A DNA stretch of 64,000 nucleotides from assembly GCA_013306675.1 (NCBI GenBank), contig JABLUY010000073.1, forward strand, positions 1-64,000. The letters run 5' to 3'. The notes under the pieces are model-generated. The model made no database searches. It saw nothing but the letters and a program-made list of their open reading frames with translations, and had not been told where the DNA came from. Shown piece by piece: positions 47,595 to 55,323 of the stretch (position 1 is its first letter; every line of letters starts with the position of its first letter). The stretch is from Thraustochytrium sp. TN22 (lineage: Eukaryota > Sar > Bigyra > Thraustochytrida > Thraustochytriidae). The position numbers and the translations under genes are program-made.

Positions 47595-49187
47595 TCAGCG
47601 CGAGTAGATGAAGAGATTGTTGAGACCGGCGACGGCGAGGAGCGGGACCTGCGGGTGCCAGGACATGTGCATGGCCTTGCGGTTGTAGTCGAGGCCAGCG
47701 GCGTTTTTGGTGTCGTCGGCACAGACCTCCATGGCCGGGCTGAACTCGATGCCCTGGTTGCGGAAGGAGAGAGCCTGCTTGGGCGGCATTTTGCCCGCCT
47801 CAATACATAAGTCGTCCTTGCCGTTGCGGTCGGCGATGTGGAACTGAGAGGAGTAGGAGCCAGTGGCGAAGCCGGCGCCGTCCGGGGACACGGCGACTTC
47901 GAACTTGTCGAATATGCACTCGTTCTCGTAGAGCTCGGAAAGCTGGGTACGCAGCTGGTCGTGAATGGGGATGGTCTTGACGGGCTTCGACTCCATGTTG
48001 ACGTCCCAGACCTTGACGGTGAGGTAGTCGCGAGAGACGATGTAGCGGCCGTCTCGCGTGAACTTGATGTCGGAGAGCGAGGCGATAATCTCGGAGAAAA
48101 AGGACTTGTTGCCGGGCACCTCGGGCTCCTCGAAGGTCTTGGCCTGGATGTCGCAGAGCGCGCGCGCGCGCATGTCGCCGAGGCGGATGCTGCCGCGGCT
48201 GCTGCTGTACATGAAGAGGTTGCACTGCGTGGGGTGGAATTCGGCGGCCGTGATCACCTCGGCCAGCTCTTCCATGTTGTCGGGCTTGATGTCGACGATG
48301 TTGAAGGAGCTGTCGCTAACGTCGAGGTTCCAGTAGTTGATGCGGAGGTCATCGGCGGAGATGAAGGTCTCGCCGTCGCTGTTTACAGAGACCGAGTTGA
48401 TGTGGTAGGCGTGCGCGTTGGCGTAGACGCGGCGCACGGCGGAGGACATGCAGCGCGACTCGAACTTGAGCTTGGGCACCTGCAGGCGCGGCACCTGGCG
48501 CCGCTGGAAGAGCGGGACGTCGGGCTCCTTGCCGCGCTCCTCGACCATCATATCCATGATGTCGGCGTCGGCGTCGGCATCCTCCTGCGGGCCGCGCGCC
48601 TGCAGGGGCTGCTTGGAGCGACCGACCTTGCCGCGGGCGGCGCCGGCACCGGCGCCGCTGGTTCCGGGACCGCCGTGCTCGACGCGGCTGCCCGGGCGCG
48701 CGCCGACGCTACTGCCGGCGCTGCTGTCGTCGGCGGGGCCAGAGGCGTTTAGGTTGCAGACCGACTTGATGGTCTTCTCGTAGACCTTCCAGAGCTTGAC
48801 GGTCTTGTCATTGGTGGAGAGCAGGAAGAGCGAGTTGTTTGATGGCCGGCACCAGCGGATGCGGTTGATCTTCTCCTCGATCTCCAGCGACTTGAGGTAG
48901 TCGAACTCGGGCTCATGGCTCTGGAACTCGCTCTGGAACCTGAACTCCAGCGGCGCCTGCAGCGGCCGCCGCTTCTTGCTCACCGCCGCCGCCACGCCCT
49001 GCACCGCGTTCTGCCCGTCCAGCTCGAAGACCACCACGCGCCCGCCCTTGTCGCCCGTCGCCAGGAAGGCGCCCGACGGGTCGAACTCCACCGCCGAGAT
49101 GATGTCCGCCTCGTTCAGGTCCTCCAGCGCCGTCTTCTCCCCAAAGCACTGGCTGAACTTCCAGTCGTCGCTCCACTCCTCCGCCAT
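47595..49187 (-). CDS. PP2A regulatory B55 (PR55) subunit, WD40
   Basis: Single exon, 530 aa, longer than the usual 440-450. It starts with WKFSQCFGEKTALEDLNEADIISAVEFDPSGAFLATGDKGG, a signature of B55, and has the WD repeats of the family (FISADDLRINYWNLD, FMYSSSRGSIRLGD, IVSRDYLTVKVWD). B55 is the substrate-choosing subunit of the heterotrimeric phosphatase 2A, with roles in mitotic exit and cytoskeleton. The extra length is mainly an inserted low-complexity, Gly/Ser/Arg-rich loop at about 146-210. The ATG at 49187 matches the family start. Catalytic activity belongs to another subunit. Confidence 0.95.
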   Translation of the reverse strand: MAEEWSDDWKFSQCFGEKTALEDLNEADIISAVEFDPSGAFLATGDKGGRVVVFELDGQNAVQGVAAAVSKKRRPLQAPLEFRFQSEFQSHEPEFDYLKSLEIEEKINRIRWCRPSNNSLFLLSTNDKTVKLWKVYEKTIKSVCNLNASGPADDSSAGSSVGARPGSRVEHGGPGTSGAGAGAARGKVGRSKQPLQARGPQEDADADADIMDMMVEERGKEPDVPLFQRRQVPRLQVPKLKFESRCMSSAVRRVYANAHAYHINSVSVNSDGETFISADDLRINYWNLDVSDSSFNIVDIKPDNMEELAEVITAAEFHPTQCNLFMYSSSRGSIRLGDMRARALCDIQAKTFEEPEVPGNKSFFSEIIASLSDIKFTRDGRYIVSRDYLTVKVWDVNMESKPVKTIPIHDQLRTQLSELYENECIFDKFEVAVSPDGAGFATGSYSSQFHIADRNGKDDLCIEAGKMPPKQALSFRNQGIEFSPAMEVCADDTKNAAGLDYNRKAMHMSWHPQVPLLAVAGLNNLFIYSR

Positions 49188-50643
49188 CTTGCCCTCGCTC
49201 CTCCCCCCCTGCGCCCTGAGCCTCCGCGCGGCCGCCAGGCCCCCGCGCGGTCGCGCCCGCGCCGCGCGCCGCCCTCGCGCGCCTAGCTAGCAACGCGCGG
49301 GCCGCCGAGCGGAGCGGCCTGGCCGCCGCAACTGCCGCCGCGCCGCCGCGCGCCGCCGCCGCGCCCGCGCGCGAGCGCGCGCCCGAGCGCCGCCGCAGGC
49401 CCGCGCCGCCGCGCGGCGCCGCCGCCCGCGCGCCGCCGCGCGCCGCCGCCCGACGCCCGCGCGCCGCCCGCGCGCAACCGGTTTGGCCAGGCTGCCGCCG
49501 CCGCGCGCGCCGCCGCGCCGGAGGTTTCATCGGCGAAACGCGCGCGGCCGGCGCTCCGCGCCCGCCCCGTGCGCGCCGCGCGGCCCCGTGTGCGCCGCGC
49601 CGCCGCGGCCGCCGCCGCGGCGGGACGGCGCGGGCGGGAGCGCCGCGGCCGGGCGCGGGTTTCGCCGGTGGGACGGGCGCCGCCGCACTGCGCCCGAGGC
49701 GGCGCGGCGGGGCGGCGCGCGCGCGCGAGGCGGCGGCCTCGCGCGCGCGCTCGAGGCGGACGCGGCGGGGAACTCGGCAGCCGGGCGTGGAGGACGACCT
49801 GCGCGGGTTTTTTCAGCCCGAGGCGCGCGTGGAGGACGCTGGGACGGGTTTCGCGGCGCGCGGATTGCGCGGACGGCGCCACGACGACTGCCCGTTGCAG
49901 GGCGGGAGCTGGGGCTCGACATGGGAGCCGTGCGGGGCGTTGTGCTTGAGCCTTGCCGCGATGGTGGTGGTTGCCGCGGTCATGGAGAGAGAGTCGTCGC
50001 GCGACTGGCAGGTCAGCAAGCACGTTTGTCTCTGGTTGAGCAAACCGCTCGCTGCCCCTCGAGCTTCGTGACGTGCTTGCCGGTCTCATCCTCGCGCTGC
50101 GACCTTGCCCTGCGCCCGGCTCGCAGGCCGGGCGTGCAGAGGAGCGGCGAATAGGGATAGCTATGGCCGCCTTAGCCAGGTGGAGGAAGAAAGCATGGCC
50201 TGAGGGCAGGTTGCAGTTCCTCCCATGTTGACGGAGTTTGGCTTGTCCGTGTACGTATGTACGCACGCTGCGAGGTGCCATCGTGTGCACGCTGATGTTG
50301 TCGATCCGAGTGGGCCCATCTTGGGCCTCTCTAGGTAATGCATGGTCGTTACAAGCATCGAAAGAAAACGCTTTGCCTTTTGCATGACTTGCTTTTTTAC
50401 CTACTTACTGGCAGGAAAAGGGGGGTTGGCGGTACTCGCGGCATTGGAAGAGGTCGCGAGTGTCCTCGTACAGGCCGAAGCTGCTGTTTCAGAACGACGA
50501 CGTCTCATTCGAGTCACCGTCCGTGCTGCTGACCGTCACCGAAGCCGTCTAGTTCCAGAACGACGTCTCGTCCCAGAACGACGTCTTGTCCGAGTCCGTG
50601 CTGCGGACCGAAGCCGTCTCGTCGCTCCGGGGTGGCGAGGGAA
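49188..50643. other. Extremely GC-rich promoter-like region, then the start of the lower-GC Fanzor island
   Basis: The first part (about 49200-49790) is almost pure G and C with CGCC/GCGC runs upstream of PP2A-B55, resembling a CpG-island promoter. From about 49900 the GC drops and the sequence becomes the left flank of the Fanzor gene, including short degenerate direct repeats (50484-50633). No host gene is seen. Confidence 0.45.
50484..50633 (+). repeat. Degenerate direct repeats just upstream of the Fanzor ATG
   Basis: Two copies of GTCCGTGCTGC(T/G)GACCG(tcac)CGAAGCCGTCT alternate with three variants of CAGAACGACGTCT(C/T)G within 150 bp. They may be remnants of the element's left end or a leader. 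They do not form a clean terminal repeat by eye. Confidence 0.7.
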
Positions 50644-51771
50644 ATGTGTCCCGGGAACATTCGTCATTTCGAGCTACACTTTCAGAGCCGCAAGAAGAAG
50701 CGCGGCTTCGTTGAGATCCCCATACAGAAGCCCTATGCCAAGAAGAAGGCTGATGAGAAGACCGCGGAGAAGTCCGGGGAGGAGGAGGTCGTGGTGGAGA
50801 GTGAGGCCGGACGAAGCAAGGCGATGGCCAATGCGAAGACCAGGAAGAAGACCAAGAGGAAGAAGACCAAGAGGAAGTCAAAGCGCTGCCCGGATGGCCA
50901 TTTCGGCCTTTGGTCCCGGCTCAAGTGGCATCTCAAGGACGCCGACGGTGAGCGCAACGTGCGCTTTGGTCCTCTTCGCTTCAAGCGCCAGGGGAGCAAG
51001 CGACGCGGGCGCAAAGTGCCGCCGTTCGTAAAGGACCGCAAGCTCATCTACGAAGAGCCCGGGCGCTGGTACATGGTCGTGCCATACACCAAGACCCGCC
51101 GCGAGACACAGCCTGCATTCAGAGACGTCACGCTCGATCCGGGAGGTCGCACGTTCCAGACCTTTTACTCCAACGACGCGAAGATGACCGGGACCATCAA
51201 TCCCATGCTCCGCACGATCAGGTCGCGCAGCAACGGCACGGTCAAGCAGTACAGCATCGGAGGCCTGCTCAACAAGATCGACTCGACACGTAGCGCGGCC
51301 GCCATGACACTCGCGACGCGTCCTGAGCTTGACTCCGAGACCAGACGCAAAATCCTAGCCAAATCCAAGTACGCGGAGCAGATGCTCTGGGCCAAGATCA
51401 AGAACAAAGTCAAGGACACGCACGACAAAACCCTACGTTTCCTGGTCGACAACTTCCGGGAGGTTCGGGTAGGCGCGATCGACATCAAGAGCGTCGTGCG
51501 ATCCAGGAACATCAACAAGAAGTCCAAGAGAGCGCTCGCGATGCTCTCACACTGTCGCTTTCGCGACAGACTCATCAAAGACCATGGTCAGGCAAGAACC
51601 ACGCTGGCCGTGCCCGAAGAGTACACCTCCAAGACATGCACCAAGTGCGGCGAAATCAAGACGGATCTCGGATCCGCCGAGATCTACAACTGCACTCGCT
51701 GCGGCCTCCAGCTCGGTCGCGACGTCAACGGTGCGCGAAACATCTACCTCAAGTCCATCACCAATGGTTAA
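50644..51771 (+). CDS. Fanzor nuclease (eukaryotic TnpB/IS605 OrfB relative), intact
   Basis: A single uninterrupted frame of 375 aa from the ATG at 50644 (an in-frame GTG at 50632 is not needed). The C-terminal half is a RuvC nuclease with a zinc ribbon: RuvC-I TLDPGGRTFQTFYS with Asp165; RuvC-II position GAIDIKSVV; then HCRFRDRL and VPEEYTSKTCTKCG; zinc Cys332, 335, 350, 353; RuvC-III LGRDVNGARNI with Asp360. The canonical RuvC-II Glu is not present where expected; Glu325/326 lie about 45 residues later, the alternative acid position reported for Fanzors and related TnpBs. The N-terminal 150 residues are Lys-rich and helical, plausible for guide RNA binding. Fanzors are RNA-guided DNA endonucleases linked to transposons; RNA partner and target motif are not seen here. 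GC is lower than in neighbours. Confidence 0.9.
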   Translation: MCPGNIRHFELHFQSRKKKRGFVEIPIQKPYAKKKADEKTAEKSGEEEVVVESEAGRSKAMANAKTRKKTKRKKTKRKSKRCPDGHFGLWSRLKWHLKDADGERNVRFGPLRFKRQGSKRRGRKVPPFVKDRKLIYEEPGRWYMVVPYTKTRRETQPAFRDVTLDPGGRTFQTFYSNDAKMTGTINPMLRTIRSRSNGTVKQYSIGGLLNKIDSTRSAAAMTLATRPELDSETRRKILAKSKYAEQMLWAKIKNKVKDTHDKTLRFLVDNFREVRVGAIDIKSVVRSRNINKKSKRALAMLSHCRFRDRLIKDHGQARTTLAVPEEYTSKTCTKCGEIKTDLGSAEIYNCTRCGLQLGRDVNGARNIYLKSITNG

Positions 51772-51779
51772 CGTTGGTG
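51759..51779 (+). other. Hairpin at the Fanzor stop codon
   Basis: CACCAATG and CGTTGGTG pair as an 8-bp stem (one G-T) around a GTTAA loop that contains the stop codon. Just after it, GAGA...TCTC (51779-51793) can form a second small stem. In TnpB systems the guide RNA comes from the 3' end of the gene, so this is a candidate scaffold, but the case is only structural. Confidence 0.45.
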
Positions 51780-53442
51780 AGAGTGACATTCTCTTCGAGC
51801 AATACATAGCTAGTTACGGCTCGGACCTCTGACTTTGATTAGTCATGTAACAAGTAACGGCACTACCAGCCTCCTGGTGCCGCGAGCTGAAGCTCAGATC
51901 TTGCTTGCTGACGGACCTTGAGCAGAAATTAAGATCTTGCTTGCTGACGGATGTCGAGCGGAAGCTCAGTTGTCGGCTGTTGACAGCTGCTGACAGACCT
52001 CCAGCCCGCTCAACGTCAGGGTGGTTCAAGATCAGGGTCGCACCCGGCCCAATCCATGGCCAGGACACTGTCCTAGCAGCAGGCCACGTAGGATGCCGCA
52101 GCGCCCATGGCATTGTGCTGCGGCAAGAAGAGGGGAAAGAGGCGCACCGATGTGCGCACCGCTTGGCCACTGACCGGCTTACGAGACAGGAGCATGAGGC
52201 CAGGCCAAGAAACCGGTGGGGGCCAAGAAAAAATGGTCGGGTCTGGGGACTGGAGCGGCAGATTATCAGTGAACAGAAGCTGCTCAGAAGCAGGGCAACG
52301 AGTATCGCGCACGAGGAGTGTTCACATGACTGTGAAACCCACGCATCGATGCGACGGCCTCTTCGTTCAATCAAATCACCGGGTGCTCGTCGCCTCTGCT
52401 CCACGCAGTTCTTGGTGTCTCGAAGACGGCGCTAAGGTTTGCGCTGGCACTGGCGATGAGGAACGACATCGCGTCCGCGGCAGGTGTCGTGCGCGACCCA
52501 GGTGAGCTTGTCGACCGAGCTGACGGTTGGTCTCGGGGGCGTGACCGACGTGACTCGCGGACGTTGTACCCACGCCCGATCGCTGCCGTAACCAAGTGAT
52601 GACGGGCGGGCAACCACTTCATCCATTTGGCGCCCCCCCTGCAGTCAGGCAAGACATTGCGAGCCGCTTCACAGATCCGAAACTTGCTGTCACTTGTCTT
52701 TGACGTGCCGTGCCATGGTGCCGCTTCCCTGCCTCTCGCGCGGAGCTCTCGTCCGGACCAGGCCGCGGAACCTCAACCAGTGCTGGGACACGGCGCACGA
52801 CGACGATGACAGGAGAGCCGCGCCCGAGTCCGGGTTCGAGCCGAGTCCGCGAGTCGGGGCCTCGTGGTTTCGACCAGGTTGCTGACTGTCGCGGTGATGG
52901 TGGAGAGAGAGCTGGACCTCGGCTCGTGTGGGACTTGAACGTGCTCCAAGTCTTTGGGGATGGAGTCTGGTGGGTGAACTTGAAGGAGGATGGGACGTCA
53001 GCGTGCGAGGTGCTGCTCGGGCGAATGGACGCCGTCGTTACCGTGCAGGGTCTGGGTGCAGAGTTTACGAGGCCGGCTTGGTGCTGCACACTGCGTGGGG
53101 GCTGCGTGGTGCTGCGTGGCATGCATAAGGTTTTCAACTGCGTTGCAGGTGCGGTCTTTCTTTGTGCTCGTGCGTCCTGCTGATCTCCATTGCGCCGCCG
53201 CGAGGCTGCTCAGCCGCGCCCAGTTGTCATCTTGATGAGCCCCTTGGCGGGCCGGGCCCTGCCAGAGGCTGCTTCCGCGCATCATGATGATGATCACTGG
53301 CACAGCACAGATGAGAGAGAGAGCAGAGAGAGAGATAGCGCGCGCACAGAACCCGAACCCCGCAAAGATTGCTCTCGCGCGCTCTCGGCGCGGCCAGGCG
53401 ATAGCACCGGCAGCGGCCGCACTGGCACCGGCAGCAGCGGCA
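51772..53442. other. Right flank of the Fanzor gene: lower-GC region with direct repeats, no clear gene
   Basis: This 1.67-kb stretch is distinctly lower in GC than the host genes. It contains a 20-bp exact direct repeat (AGATCTTGCTTGCTGACGGA) 36 bp apart, many Ser/Arg-rich chance frames, and near 52918-53000 a short frame with FGDGVWWVNLKEDG. GA runs at 53304-53333 precede the S28 peptidase. Element ends could not be fixed by eye. Confidence 0.4.
51896..51951. repeat. 20-bp exact direct repeat in the Fanzor right flank
   Basis: Copies of AGATCTTGCTTGCTGACGGA at 51896-51915 and 51932-51951 (36-bp period); related AAGCTCAG motifs sit beside both. Candidate remnant of an element end or a small array. 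Confidence 0.8.
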
Positions 53443-55323
53443 ATGGCGGCGAAGCTAGTCGCTCTAGCGGTGGCGACAGCGGCCGTGGCGGCGGCGCAGG
53501 GCGAGCATGCGTCGTTGGCAAACTGCACCTTGATGCTGCGCGTGCAGCAGCCCGTGGACCACTTCAACGGCGGCGGGCGCACGTTCGCACAGCGCGTGTG
53601 CGTACACGATGGCTTCCGGCGCGCCACGGATGGCGCGACGGCGCCTATGCTATTCTACACGGGCAACGAGGGCCCGGTGGACCTGTACGTGAACAACACG
53701 GGCCTCATGTGGGAGCTGGGCCGCGAGCTGGGCGCTGTCTTGGTCTTCGCGGAGCACAGGTACTTTGGCGAGTCCGTGCCGGAGCTTGAGGGCATGGACA
53801 ACTGCATGGCCTACGTGTCAAGCGCGCAGGCGCTGGCGGATTACTCGCTCGTGGTGCCGCTCGTCAAGGACCGCCTCGGGCTCAGCGCGGACGCCAAGGT
53901 GGTCGCCTTCGGCGGGTCCTACGGCGGCATGCTGGCCGCCTTCTTCCGTCTGCGGTACCCTCACGTGTGCAACGGCGGCGCCGTGGCCGGCTCGGCGCCC
54001 GTGCTCGGCTTCGCGTCCTCGCGGCCCCAGCTCGACGGCTCCTTCGCCGCCATCTCGCGCGGCTTCGAGGACGGCGCCGGCAAGCTCGACATGCAATGCT
54101 GGGACAGCCTGCTGGCCGCCTGGGCGCTTATCGACGTGCTTGCGCAGACCGAAACCGGCCGCGATCTGCTGCTGTCCGAGCTGCGCTGGTGCGCGCCTCT
54201 GCCGTCTCCGCGCGACCTGCTCGCAGCGCTGCAGGGCGTCTTCTTCTTGCTGGCCGAGTCCAACTTCCCCTTTCCCTCAGACTACATCGTCTTCTCGATC
54301 CTCAACGTGCGTGGCTTCCCGCTGCCCGCCTGGCCCATGCGCAAGGTCTGCAGCAAGGTGCGCCAGCCGCGCGACGAGCTGCGTCTCGTTGGCGATCGCT
54401 CCGAGGTGCAATTCACGGTCGAGCTGGGCGGCAAGGCGGCCATGGAGGTGGACTGGGACATGGCCCGCCGCGCAGAGGACGCTCCGGACCTCGAGACGCT
54501 TCCGGCCGCGCAGGCGCTCTTGGCCGGCGTGCGCGAGGCCTACGGTATGCTCTATAATATCACCGGCGAAACCACGTGCTTCGGCCCCGGTCCACAGGAA
54601 GACGCGGCCCAGCGGCACTCGAGGCCGGCCTTTGGTCGCGGAGCTACCGCTGCTCATGCCGCTGCTCATGCGAATGCTCATGCTGATGCCCCGGCGGCGG
54701 CTCGCGTTTCCACCACTTTCGCTCACAACGCAGAGACCTCGTCAACCTGCTCCGAGGCAGGCGTGGAACCCCTGGACGGCTGGGGCGCGCTCGTTTGCAA
54801 CGAAGGCTTCTTTCTCGTGCAAGACATCGTGCAGGGAGTGGGACGCGACGCCTACTGGCCGCCGACCGTGACGCGCGAGCAGTTTGCCAATGCTACCTAC
54901 CGGGACCTCGTCATGGGTGCCGACGTTGCGTCGTTCTGCGCCTCCTACCGCGAGCGCGGCCTCTACGGCGTCACCGATGACCCAGCCCTCCTGGACCCGC
55001 TCGGCGCCTGGCCTTACGCGCAGTACATGGGTCGTGCCATCTCCGACCACGCCACCAAGATTATTTTCAGCAACGGCCGCTACGACCCATGGTCCGCCGC
55101 TGGCGTCCTCAACTCCGTCGAGGAGCGCGAGATTTTTGCTGTGGAGTTCACTCACGGGGCGCACCACACCGACTTTATGTTCTCGCGCCCGGACGACCCG
55201 ACGTCTCTTCGGGAGGGCCGCGAGCGCGAACGCGAGATCATCGCGTCGTGGCTTGGACGCGCCCGCCCCAGCAAGCAGCAGCTGCATGAGCAGCAGCAAG
55301 AGCAGCAGCAAGAGCAGTCGTAA
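53443..55323 (+). CDS. Serine carboxypeptidase-like S28 family peptidase (Pro-X carboxypeptidase/DPP7 type)
   Basis: Single exon, 626 aa from the ATG at 53443, which starts a signal peptide (MAAKLVALAVATAAVAAAQG). The nucleophile Ser159 sits in FGGSYGGML, the family signature; upstream QPVDHFN and LFYTGNEG are S28 landmarks. The acid Asp548 is in SNGRYDPWSAAG, and the catalytic His is one of His571/574/575 in THGAHHTDF. S28 enzymes cleave after proline at the C-terminus (Pro-X carboxypeptidase) or at the N-terminus (DPP2/7), in lysosome-like compartments or secreted. A His/Ala-rich insert (about 405-425) and a Gln/Glu C-terminal tail are extras. Which end it attacks cannot be told. Confidence 0.93.
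   Translation: MAAKLVALAVATAAVAAAQGEHASLANCTLMLRVQQPVDHFNGGGRTFAQRVCVHDGFRRATDGATAPMLFYTGNEGPVDLYVNNTGLMWELGRELGAVLVFAEHRYFGESVPELEGMDNCMAYVSSAQALADYSLVVPLVKDRLGLSADAKVVAFGGSYGGMLAAFFRLRYPHVCNGGAVAGSAPVLGFASSRPQLDGSFAAISRGFEDGAGKLDMQCWDSLLAAWALIDVLAQTETGRDLLLSELRWCAPLPSPRDLLAALQGVFFLLAESNFPFPSDYIVFSILNVRGFPLPAWPMRKVCSKVRQPRDELRLVGDRSEVQFTVELGGKAAMEVDWDMARRAEDAPDLETLPAAQALLAGVREAYGMLYNITGETTCFGPGPQEDAAQRHSRPAFGRGATAAHAAAHANAHADAPAAARVSTTFAHNAETSSTCSEAGVEPLDGWGALVCNEGFFLVQDIVQGVGRDAYWPPTVTREQFANATYRDLVMGADVASFCASYRERGLYGVTDDPALLDPLGAWPYAQYMGRAISDHATKIIFSNGRYDPWSAAGVLNSVEEREIFAVEFTHGAHHTDFMFSRPDDPTSLREGREREREIIASWLGRARPSKQQLHEQQQEQQQEQS

Follow-up and report, generated by a model that had tools for sequence, protein, structure and literature searches.

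A probable recent 5'-truncated copy of an IS607-type Fanzor2 transposon in the genome of Thraustochytrium sp. TN22

We analysed a stretch of 64,000 nucleotides from Thraustochytrium sp. TN22 (GenBank assembly GCA_013306675.1, contig JABLUY010000073.1, positions 1 to 64,000; hereafter the window). It contains, at 50644-51771, an open reading frame (ORF) that resembles Fanzor, the eukaryotic branch of the TnpB family of RNA-guided nucleases. A first-pass annotation of the letters had described this frame as an intact and possibly active Fanzor with an alternative catalytic acid and without a partner transposase, and as a candidate for an undescribed system. The genome that holds the window amounts to 37.9 Mb in 453 contigs (the window lies on contig C424), and it contains two further Fanzor copies, found by protein search on contigs C343 (469 amino acids, aa) and C413 (444 aa), which bear directly on these claims.

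The frame and its active site

The coding features of the locus are as follows.

50644-51771, plus strand: truncated Fanzor2 ORF of 375 aa, residues 4-375 corresponding to residues 100-469 of the C343 Fanzor2
50652-51860, plus strand: 3' 57% of an IS607-type element with its Fanzor2 gene (blastn against bases 915-2117 of the C343 element)
51136-51138, plus strand: codon of Asp165, RuvC-I (DPG), from alignment and pattern
51616-51618, plus strand: codon of Glu325, alternative RuvC-II glutamate (ExxxxxxC), from alignment and pattern
51637-51702, plus strand: four-cysteine zinc ribbon (C332, C335, C350, C353), from Pfam and alignment
51721-51723, plus strand: codon of Asp360, RuvC-III (GRD), from alignment
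50749-50883, plus strand: lysine-rich 45-residue insertion (residues 36-80), present in the window and C343 copies and not in C413

The coordinates and length of the ORF, with its ATG at 50644, were confirmed, and so were all the motif landmarks of the Fanzor lineage: LDPGG at residues 164-168, VGAIDIKS at 276-283, PEEYTSK at 324-330, CTKCG from 332, CTRCG from 350 and GRDVNG at 358-363, the RD after the zinc ribbon being residues 359-360. The predicted protein fits the Fanzor fingerprint DPGx(120-160)ExxxxxxCxxCx(12,18)CxxCx(4,8)D, as applied by Yoon et al. to Fanzors and bacterial relatives (PMC10711439), with DPG, 157 residues, ExxxxxxCxxC, 14 residues, CxxC, 6 residues and D; the same regular expression also matches the C343 and C413 proteins. 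Pfam PF07282 was found at E 2.9e-13 (50.2 bits against a cut-off of 26.3) and NCBIfam guided_TnpB at E 9e-20, with 71.3 bits that lie below the model cut-off of 100; the latter profile is entered at position 82 by the window protein and at position 2 by both longer copies. Among solved structures the mimivirus Fanzor2 (PDB 9b0l) was the top phmmer match (E 2.6e-22, the next entry following at 1.5e-07). It was likewise the best fold match of the predicted model, of which the C-terminal half matches RuvC nucleases, as the first-pass annotation had expected, while residues 1-47 and 75-125 stay below 50 in the predicted local distance difference test (pLDDT). Such matches to the Fanzor/TnpB lineage far exceed chance, and judged by its sequence the 375-aa protein is a member of that lineage.

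The active site was compared in an alignment of 27 rows, comprising the window protein, 24 chosen relatives, mimivirus L79 and a canonical TnpB (L008). The columns of Asp165 and Asp360 are invariant (27/27), and that of Glu325 holds Glu in 26 of the 27 rows and Pro in the canonical TnpB. The 24 relatives had been gathered with a pattern that requires the alternative Glu, so that its conservation among them holds by construction, and only the window, mimivirus L79 and L008 are independent tests. In the column of the canonical Glu, L008 has Glu, the window (Gly277), the mimivirus protein and five others have Gly, 18 rows have Pro and one has Gln. Asp280, which had been taken for the canonical RuvC-II position, thus sits three residues past it. 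The canonical Glu being absent, the alternative E325 precedes the first CxxC (C332) by six intervening residues. Of the proposed pair Glu325/326 only the former occupies the conserved column, as the Glu326 column holds Glu in just 11 of 27 rows. The most likely catalytic set of the predicted protein is D165-E325-D360, and the reading as a Fanzor-lineage protein with an alternative acid position is upheld.

Relatives were gathered with a degenerate pattern from 52 viral stretches and 80 listed genome loci (the genome scan gave at least 120 stretches). This yielded 132 ORFs, of which 64 matched a loose RuvC/zinc pattern and 68 were dropped; 63 of the 64 match the C343 Fanzor2 at E 1e-3 or better, and 24 of these 63 were chosen for the alignment. 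A separate related-locus search returned one relative (a canonical TnpB) with a single-protein query and none with an alignment query. One locus (L139) was left out of the tree for lack of the motif. In the midpoint-rooted tree, which has no Fanzor1 row, a single known Fanzor2 (mimivirus) and long branches that include L79 and L061, the window protein groups with IS607-type DPG TnpBs and the viral Fanzor2 in a clade of 31 of 66 rows (support 100/99), apart from other TnpBs. Three of 29 rows labelled DPG fall outside this clade, the label having been given by preference where several motif starts fitted. Profile searches and tree, which had been named as a possible refutation, thus place the protein inside the TnpB/Fanzor clade. 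A Fanzor-like protein on a viral contig (L063:2203-3756), with DCG replacing DPG in RuvC-I, is also placed within the DPG clade. The lysine-rich insertion shared by the window and C343 proteins is partly made of repeated AAGACCAAGAGGAAG-like units and looks, by eye, like a nuclear localisation signal.

The missing front and the element family

When the C343 element (2,118 bp) is used as DNA query, the window contig holds only bases 915-2117, with 98.9% identity over 1,209 columns (7 mismatches and one 6-base gap). Correspondence with the C343 Fanzor2 begins at residue 4 of the window frame, the equivalent of C343 residue 100; residues 1-2, including the ATG, are encoded by flanking DNA and residue 3 straddles the junction. 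Both longer copies begin 99 codons earlier (C343 numbering), at MKVRV[ML]PTK. The frame is thus not intact: the window copy lacks the first 99 Fanzor2 residues as well as any tnpA. The first-pass annotation was right that it has no partner transposase, two sister copies having one; the partner is absent because the tnpA-bearing half of the element is missing.

A front part that lies nearby or is joined by splicing was considered and rejected. Searched against the whole window, the missing half of the element gave no convincing homologue with blastn (best E 0.014, over 20 bases), nor did the missing Fanzor2 piece (best E 3.9) or TnpA (best E 0.53) with tblastn, and the N-terminal part was not found elsewhere on the window contig at the sensitivity of the element DNA search. 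As described by Saito et al. (PMC10432273), the REC of two Fanzor2s and of ISDra2 TnpB consists of three helices, about 100 aa, inserted in WED. The missing piece agrees with this REC region in position and approximate size; its direct alignment to 9b0l is weak (9.8 bits), and the window copy lacks the region that aligns from 9b0l residue 136 onward. The absent part includes the native start codon and, judged by homology, the first WED strand and the REC helices. Without these the copy, which does not encode a complete WED, REC and RuvC protein, should not assemble a working guided nuclease alone and is probably non-functional.

The absence of stops and frameshifts had been taken as a sign of possible activity. 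The frame is indeed open, but this carries little information: window and C343 copies differ by 0.6%, and at that distance neutral decay is expected to produce about 0.22 stops, so that the youth of the frame suffices to explain their absence. Six codon differences, five of them nonsynonymous, were counted in 367 compared codons, the comparison leaving aside the six codon pairs next to the junction, among which there is one further nonsynonymous difference (residue 6), outside the joint itself. We read the window copy, with a probability of about 0.9, as a recent 5'-truncated copy of an IS607-type transposon encoding TnpA and Fanzor2. A deletion or faulty insertion would have removed its front, leaving the RuvC/zinc-ribbon half and the right end intact.

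The family comprises four copies or pieces in this genome, namely the two longer copies (C343, C413), a front piece (C221, with tnpA but no more than the first part of fanzor2) and a back piece (at the window locus). Whole-genome searches found PF07282 at three places and the NCBIfam model NF033518 'IS607 family transposase' at three loci. In C343 and C413 tnpA lies upstream of fanzor2, and the gene between the left end and fanzor2 encodes a MerR-type DNA-binding domain and a serine-recombinase domain (Pfam). In six-frame searches NF033518 (cut-off 110) scored 121.1 bits at C221, 119.9 bits at C343, with a stop inside, and 63.3 bits for the best piece at C413, where the open tnpA frame overlaps the start of fanzor2. 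All three copies found to carry tnpA have it damaged: C343 has one stop and a 42-base gap relative to the other copies, C221 a frameshift, and C413 an 81-base gap in the catalytic domain together with His at the position of the Asp in the YRDRLCR motif of C221, an Asp that we take to be catalytic in serine recombinases. With tnpA broken in every copy found that carries it, the family would seem to be immobile. Both C343 and C413 retain open Fanzor2 frames; in C413 the loss of one base just before the end shifts the frame, alters the last residues and extends the C-terminus into right-end sequence.

Between C343 and C413 the ratio of nonsynonymous to synonymous divergence (dN/dS) of fanzor2 is 0.28, at dS 0.49 over 421 codons. 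If 0.25 neutral changes per site are assumed, either frame should have gathered about 10-11 stops, so selection acted on both during much of their history. For tnpA the ratio is 0.64 between C413 and C343 (dS 0.10), 0.40 between C413 and C221 (dS 0.33) and 0.32 between C343 and C221 (dS 0.44). These values indicate constraint on tnpA as well during most of its history; domestication, considered on the strength of the fanzor2 ratio, was rejected, as the contrast between the genes does not show it. That tnpA has a lower dS than fanzor2 in the C343/C413 comparison suggests different histories of the two genes, as under gene conversion or module exchange. If anything in this family works, it would be the full-length C343 and C413 Fanzor2 frames and not the window copy. 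One may go further and suppose that the Fanzor2 gene outlived its transposase: given two long open frames, a tnpA damaged in all three copies and a matching right end in the window, an RNA-guided nuclease would persist in the nuclear genome without a transposase, served by several dispersed guide loci. We regard this as distinctly unlikely; the ratio of 0.28 may date from selection before the death of tnpA, and the tnpA pairs show constraint too.

Right end, left joint and host context

The element boundaries and their surroundings in the window comprise the following features.

51772-51860, plus strand: non-coding right end, ending ...AAGTAACGG at the same base in three copies, after which the flanks differ
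51758-51780, plus strand: 9-bp hairpin spanning the stop codon in three copies, candidate first stem of an omegaRNA scaffold (folding, alignment)
51830-51845, plus strand: 5-bp right-end hairpin, invariant in three copies (folding, alignment)
51861-51880, plus strand: DNA just outside the right end, putative guide position (sole exact match in the genome)
50651-50652, no strand: left breakpoint, where host-derived DNA joins the Fanzor2 interior, the bases CG being common to both (blastn, alignment)
49991-50651, no strand: flanking DNA homologous in pieces to C234:11447-12169 up to the joint, 81% identical over the main piece

The right ends of all three copies end in CGG, and the left ends of the two longer copies begin with TTGG (that of C221 has diverged); no terminal inverted repeat was seen by eye. 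A repeat in the C343 flank suggests that the TT of TTGG belongs to the flank and the GG to the element. IS607 transposition has been shown to target GG dinucleotides without target duplication (PMC6188088). The C343 left end adjoins a minisatellite (units ending GGGCCTGGTGGC), and a second copy of 50 bp of flank lies about 180 bp upstream.

By analogy with known relatives, TnpA would have exchanged strands at the GG dinucleotide, and the 3' end of the fanzor2 transcript together with the right end would have formed the omegaRNA, its guide being read from the DNA just outside the element. Fanzor2 would have cut the sites emptied by excision, whereupon the element would have been copied back. 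In the two hairpins all 14 pairs are formed in all three copies, with two one-sided and no compensatory changes, which a shuffle control did not distinguish from chance; when the partners were slid by 1-3 columns, 14-62% of cells paired, and single-sequence folds had z-scores of -0.44 to -2.28. The hairpins are thus compatible, weakly, with an omegaRNA scaffold. The guide-sized flank has one exact site in the genome, its own, and six others with three mismatches, as against three for the reversed control. A search of 49000-54000 with Rfam gave three matches, all under the gathering score, and a tRNA search of the window found none.

The left joint falls at Fanzor codon 99/100, next to the remnant of an unrelated host gene with a paralogue on contig C234. 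On C234 the homologous DNA forms the 3' end of a frame on the minus strand whose repeats are rich in Ser and Asp. That frame (L016:4952-6136) contains repeats such as SDETASVxSTDS and gave no match in a Pfam search; the window retains only the 3' end of a frame of this type (50500-50651, minus strand), which breaks off at the Fanzor fragment. On the other side, 52294-52877 aligns to C234:13593-14277 in four pieces; where C234 has about 1.4 kb, the window carries instead the Fanzor fragment and 433 bp of unmatched DNA. By these alignments the pair resembles an old duplication. No counterpart of the right flank (51861-52293) turned up elsewhere in the genome at the search sensitivity used, and the paralogue therefore yields the left breakpoint and not a clean empty site. 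The genome-wide search thus delivered other copies and a defined right end, as proposed in the first-pass annotation, but no empty site for the window copy. The simplest account is that the element inserted and that a deletion then removed its front and part of the host gene; the two-base CG overlap at the joint would fit end joining.

Neighbouring genes encode a WD40-repeat protein (47595-49187) and a Peptidase_S28 protein (53284-55323), which point to a eukaryotic chromosome; G+C is 58-73% within the window. A 55-bp stretch at 50277-50331 recurs, whole or largely, in at least 13 other places of the genome at 88-93% identity. At least five of these recurrences lie on contig C160 at a regular spacing of 1,043 bp; Rfam gave no match at the window stretch.

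Competing readings and known systems

The frame might still encode, from the upstream ATG as the true start, a 375-aa Fanzor that stands alone, is intact and is, or recently was, active. Its openness, the ATG at 50644 and the full set of catalytic landmarks speak for this, and the 98.9% identity to C343 indicates a recent common origin. Yet flanking DNA, and not the element, supplies the ATG and residue 2, both longer copies start 99 codons earlier, the model has low pLDDT at residues 1-47 and 75-125, and about as much is missing as the three-helix REC described by Saito et al. would occupy, all of which makes this reading very unlikely. Equally hard to credit is a misassembly at the left joint that would hide a window copy of full length. 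We worked from a single assembly without reads, and near-identical copies may confuse assemblers; the left flank, however, follows the C234 paralogue without a break as far as the joint, and on the right the flanks of the window and C343 copies differ, so that two copies have not simply been collapsed into one.

Two further readings would give the truncated copy a role. Its right-end omegaRNA could be used in trans by the C343 Fanzor2 and so mark or defend the insertion site; the right end is nearly identical to that of C343 and keeps both hairpins, the guide-sized flank is matched exactly nowhere else in the genome, and a full-length Fanzor2 frame is available in trans. This remains rather unlikely in view of the hairpin statistics, which the shuffle control does not separate from chance and which show no compensatory change, and of the loss of the original promoter side. 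Alternatively, the RuvC/zinc-ribbon half could be retained as a host protein with another DNA- or RNA-binding role, a possibility to which the open frame and the lysine-rich stretch resembling a nuclear localisation signal lend some colour. We give it hardly any credence, because the five nonsynonymous changes among the six codon differences from C343 indicate no constraint (the number being too small to test) and genome searches found no other copy of such structure.

The truncated IS607-type element, our preferred reading, illustrates that a frame may run without interruption, have a perfect active site and yet be no more than a recent fragment, and it corrects a tempting interpretation. It also brings to light, in a eukaryotic genome, an IS607-Fanzor2 family that is small and can be dated, with two longer copies, one front and one back piece. 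If the longer copies are expressed, they would offer a tractable place to ask whether a Fanzor2 survives or is reused after its transposase has decayed.

Among known systems, the mimivirus Fanzor2 (Acanthamoeba polyphaga mimivirus L79) is the closest in sequence and fold, sharing DPG, the alternative Glu, the zinc ribbon and RD, with 26-35% identity over the shared part. An IS607-type tnpA partner, reported for the mimivirus ISvMimi elements (PMC3627910), is found here in the sister copies C343 and C413 and not at the window copy, and the host here is a eukaryotic genome. The cyanobacterial 'pro-Fanzor' TnpBs of IS607 elements (PMC10711439) likewise have DPG and the alternative Glu and fall in the same 31-row clade; they are bacterial, with 25-33% identity to the C343 protein in the best segment. 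Canonical TnpBs of IS200/IS605 and IS607 elements have the RuvC and TNB domains in common with the window protein, and those of IS607 also the tnpA-tnpB layout, whereas the window protein has Gly277 in place of the canonical Glu and, in addition, the alternative Glu325. None of 15 phmmer matches (E up to 1) was named Fanzor1 (SpuFz1, PDB 8gkh), and the accounts in PMC10711439 and PMC3627910 assign Fanzor1s to cut-and-paste and other eukaryotic transposons rather than to IS607. Fanzor2 in IS607-type elements of eukaryotes and their viruses, by contrast, has been known since Bao and Jurka described it in 2013 (PMC3627910), and the window copy is a truncated member of this known kind, an IS607-linked Fanzor2, and not the undescribed system for which it had been taken.
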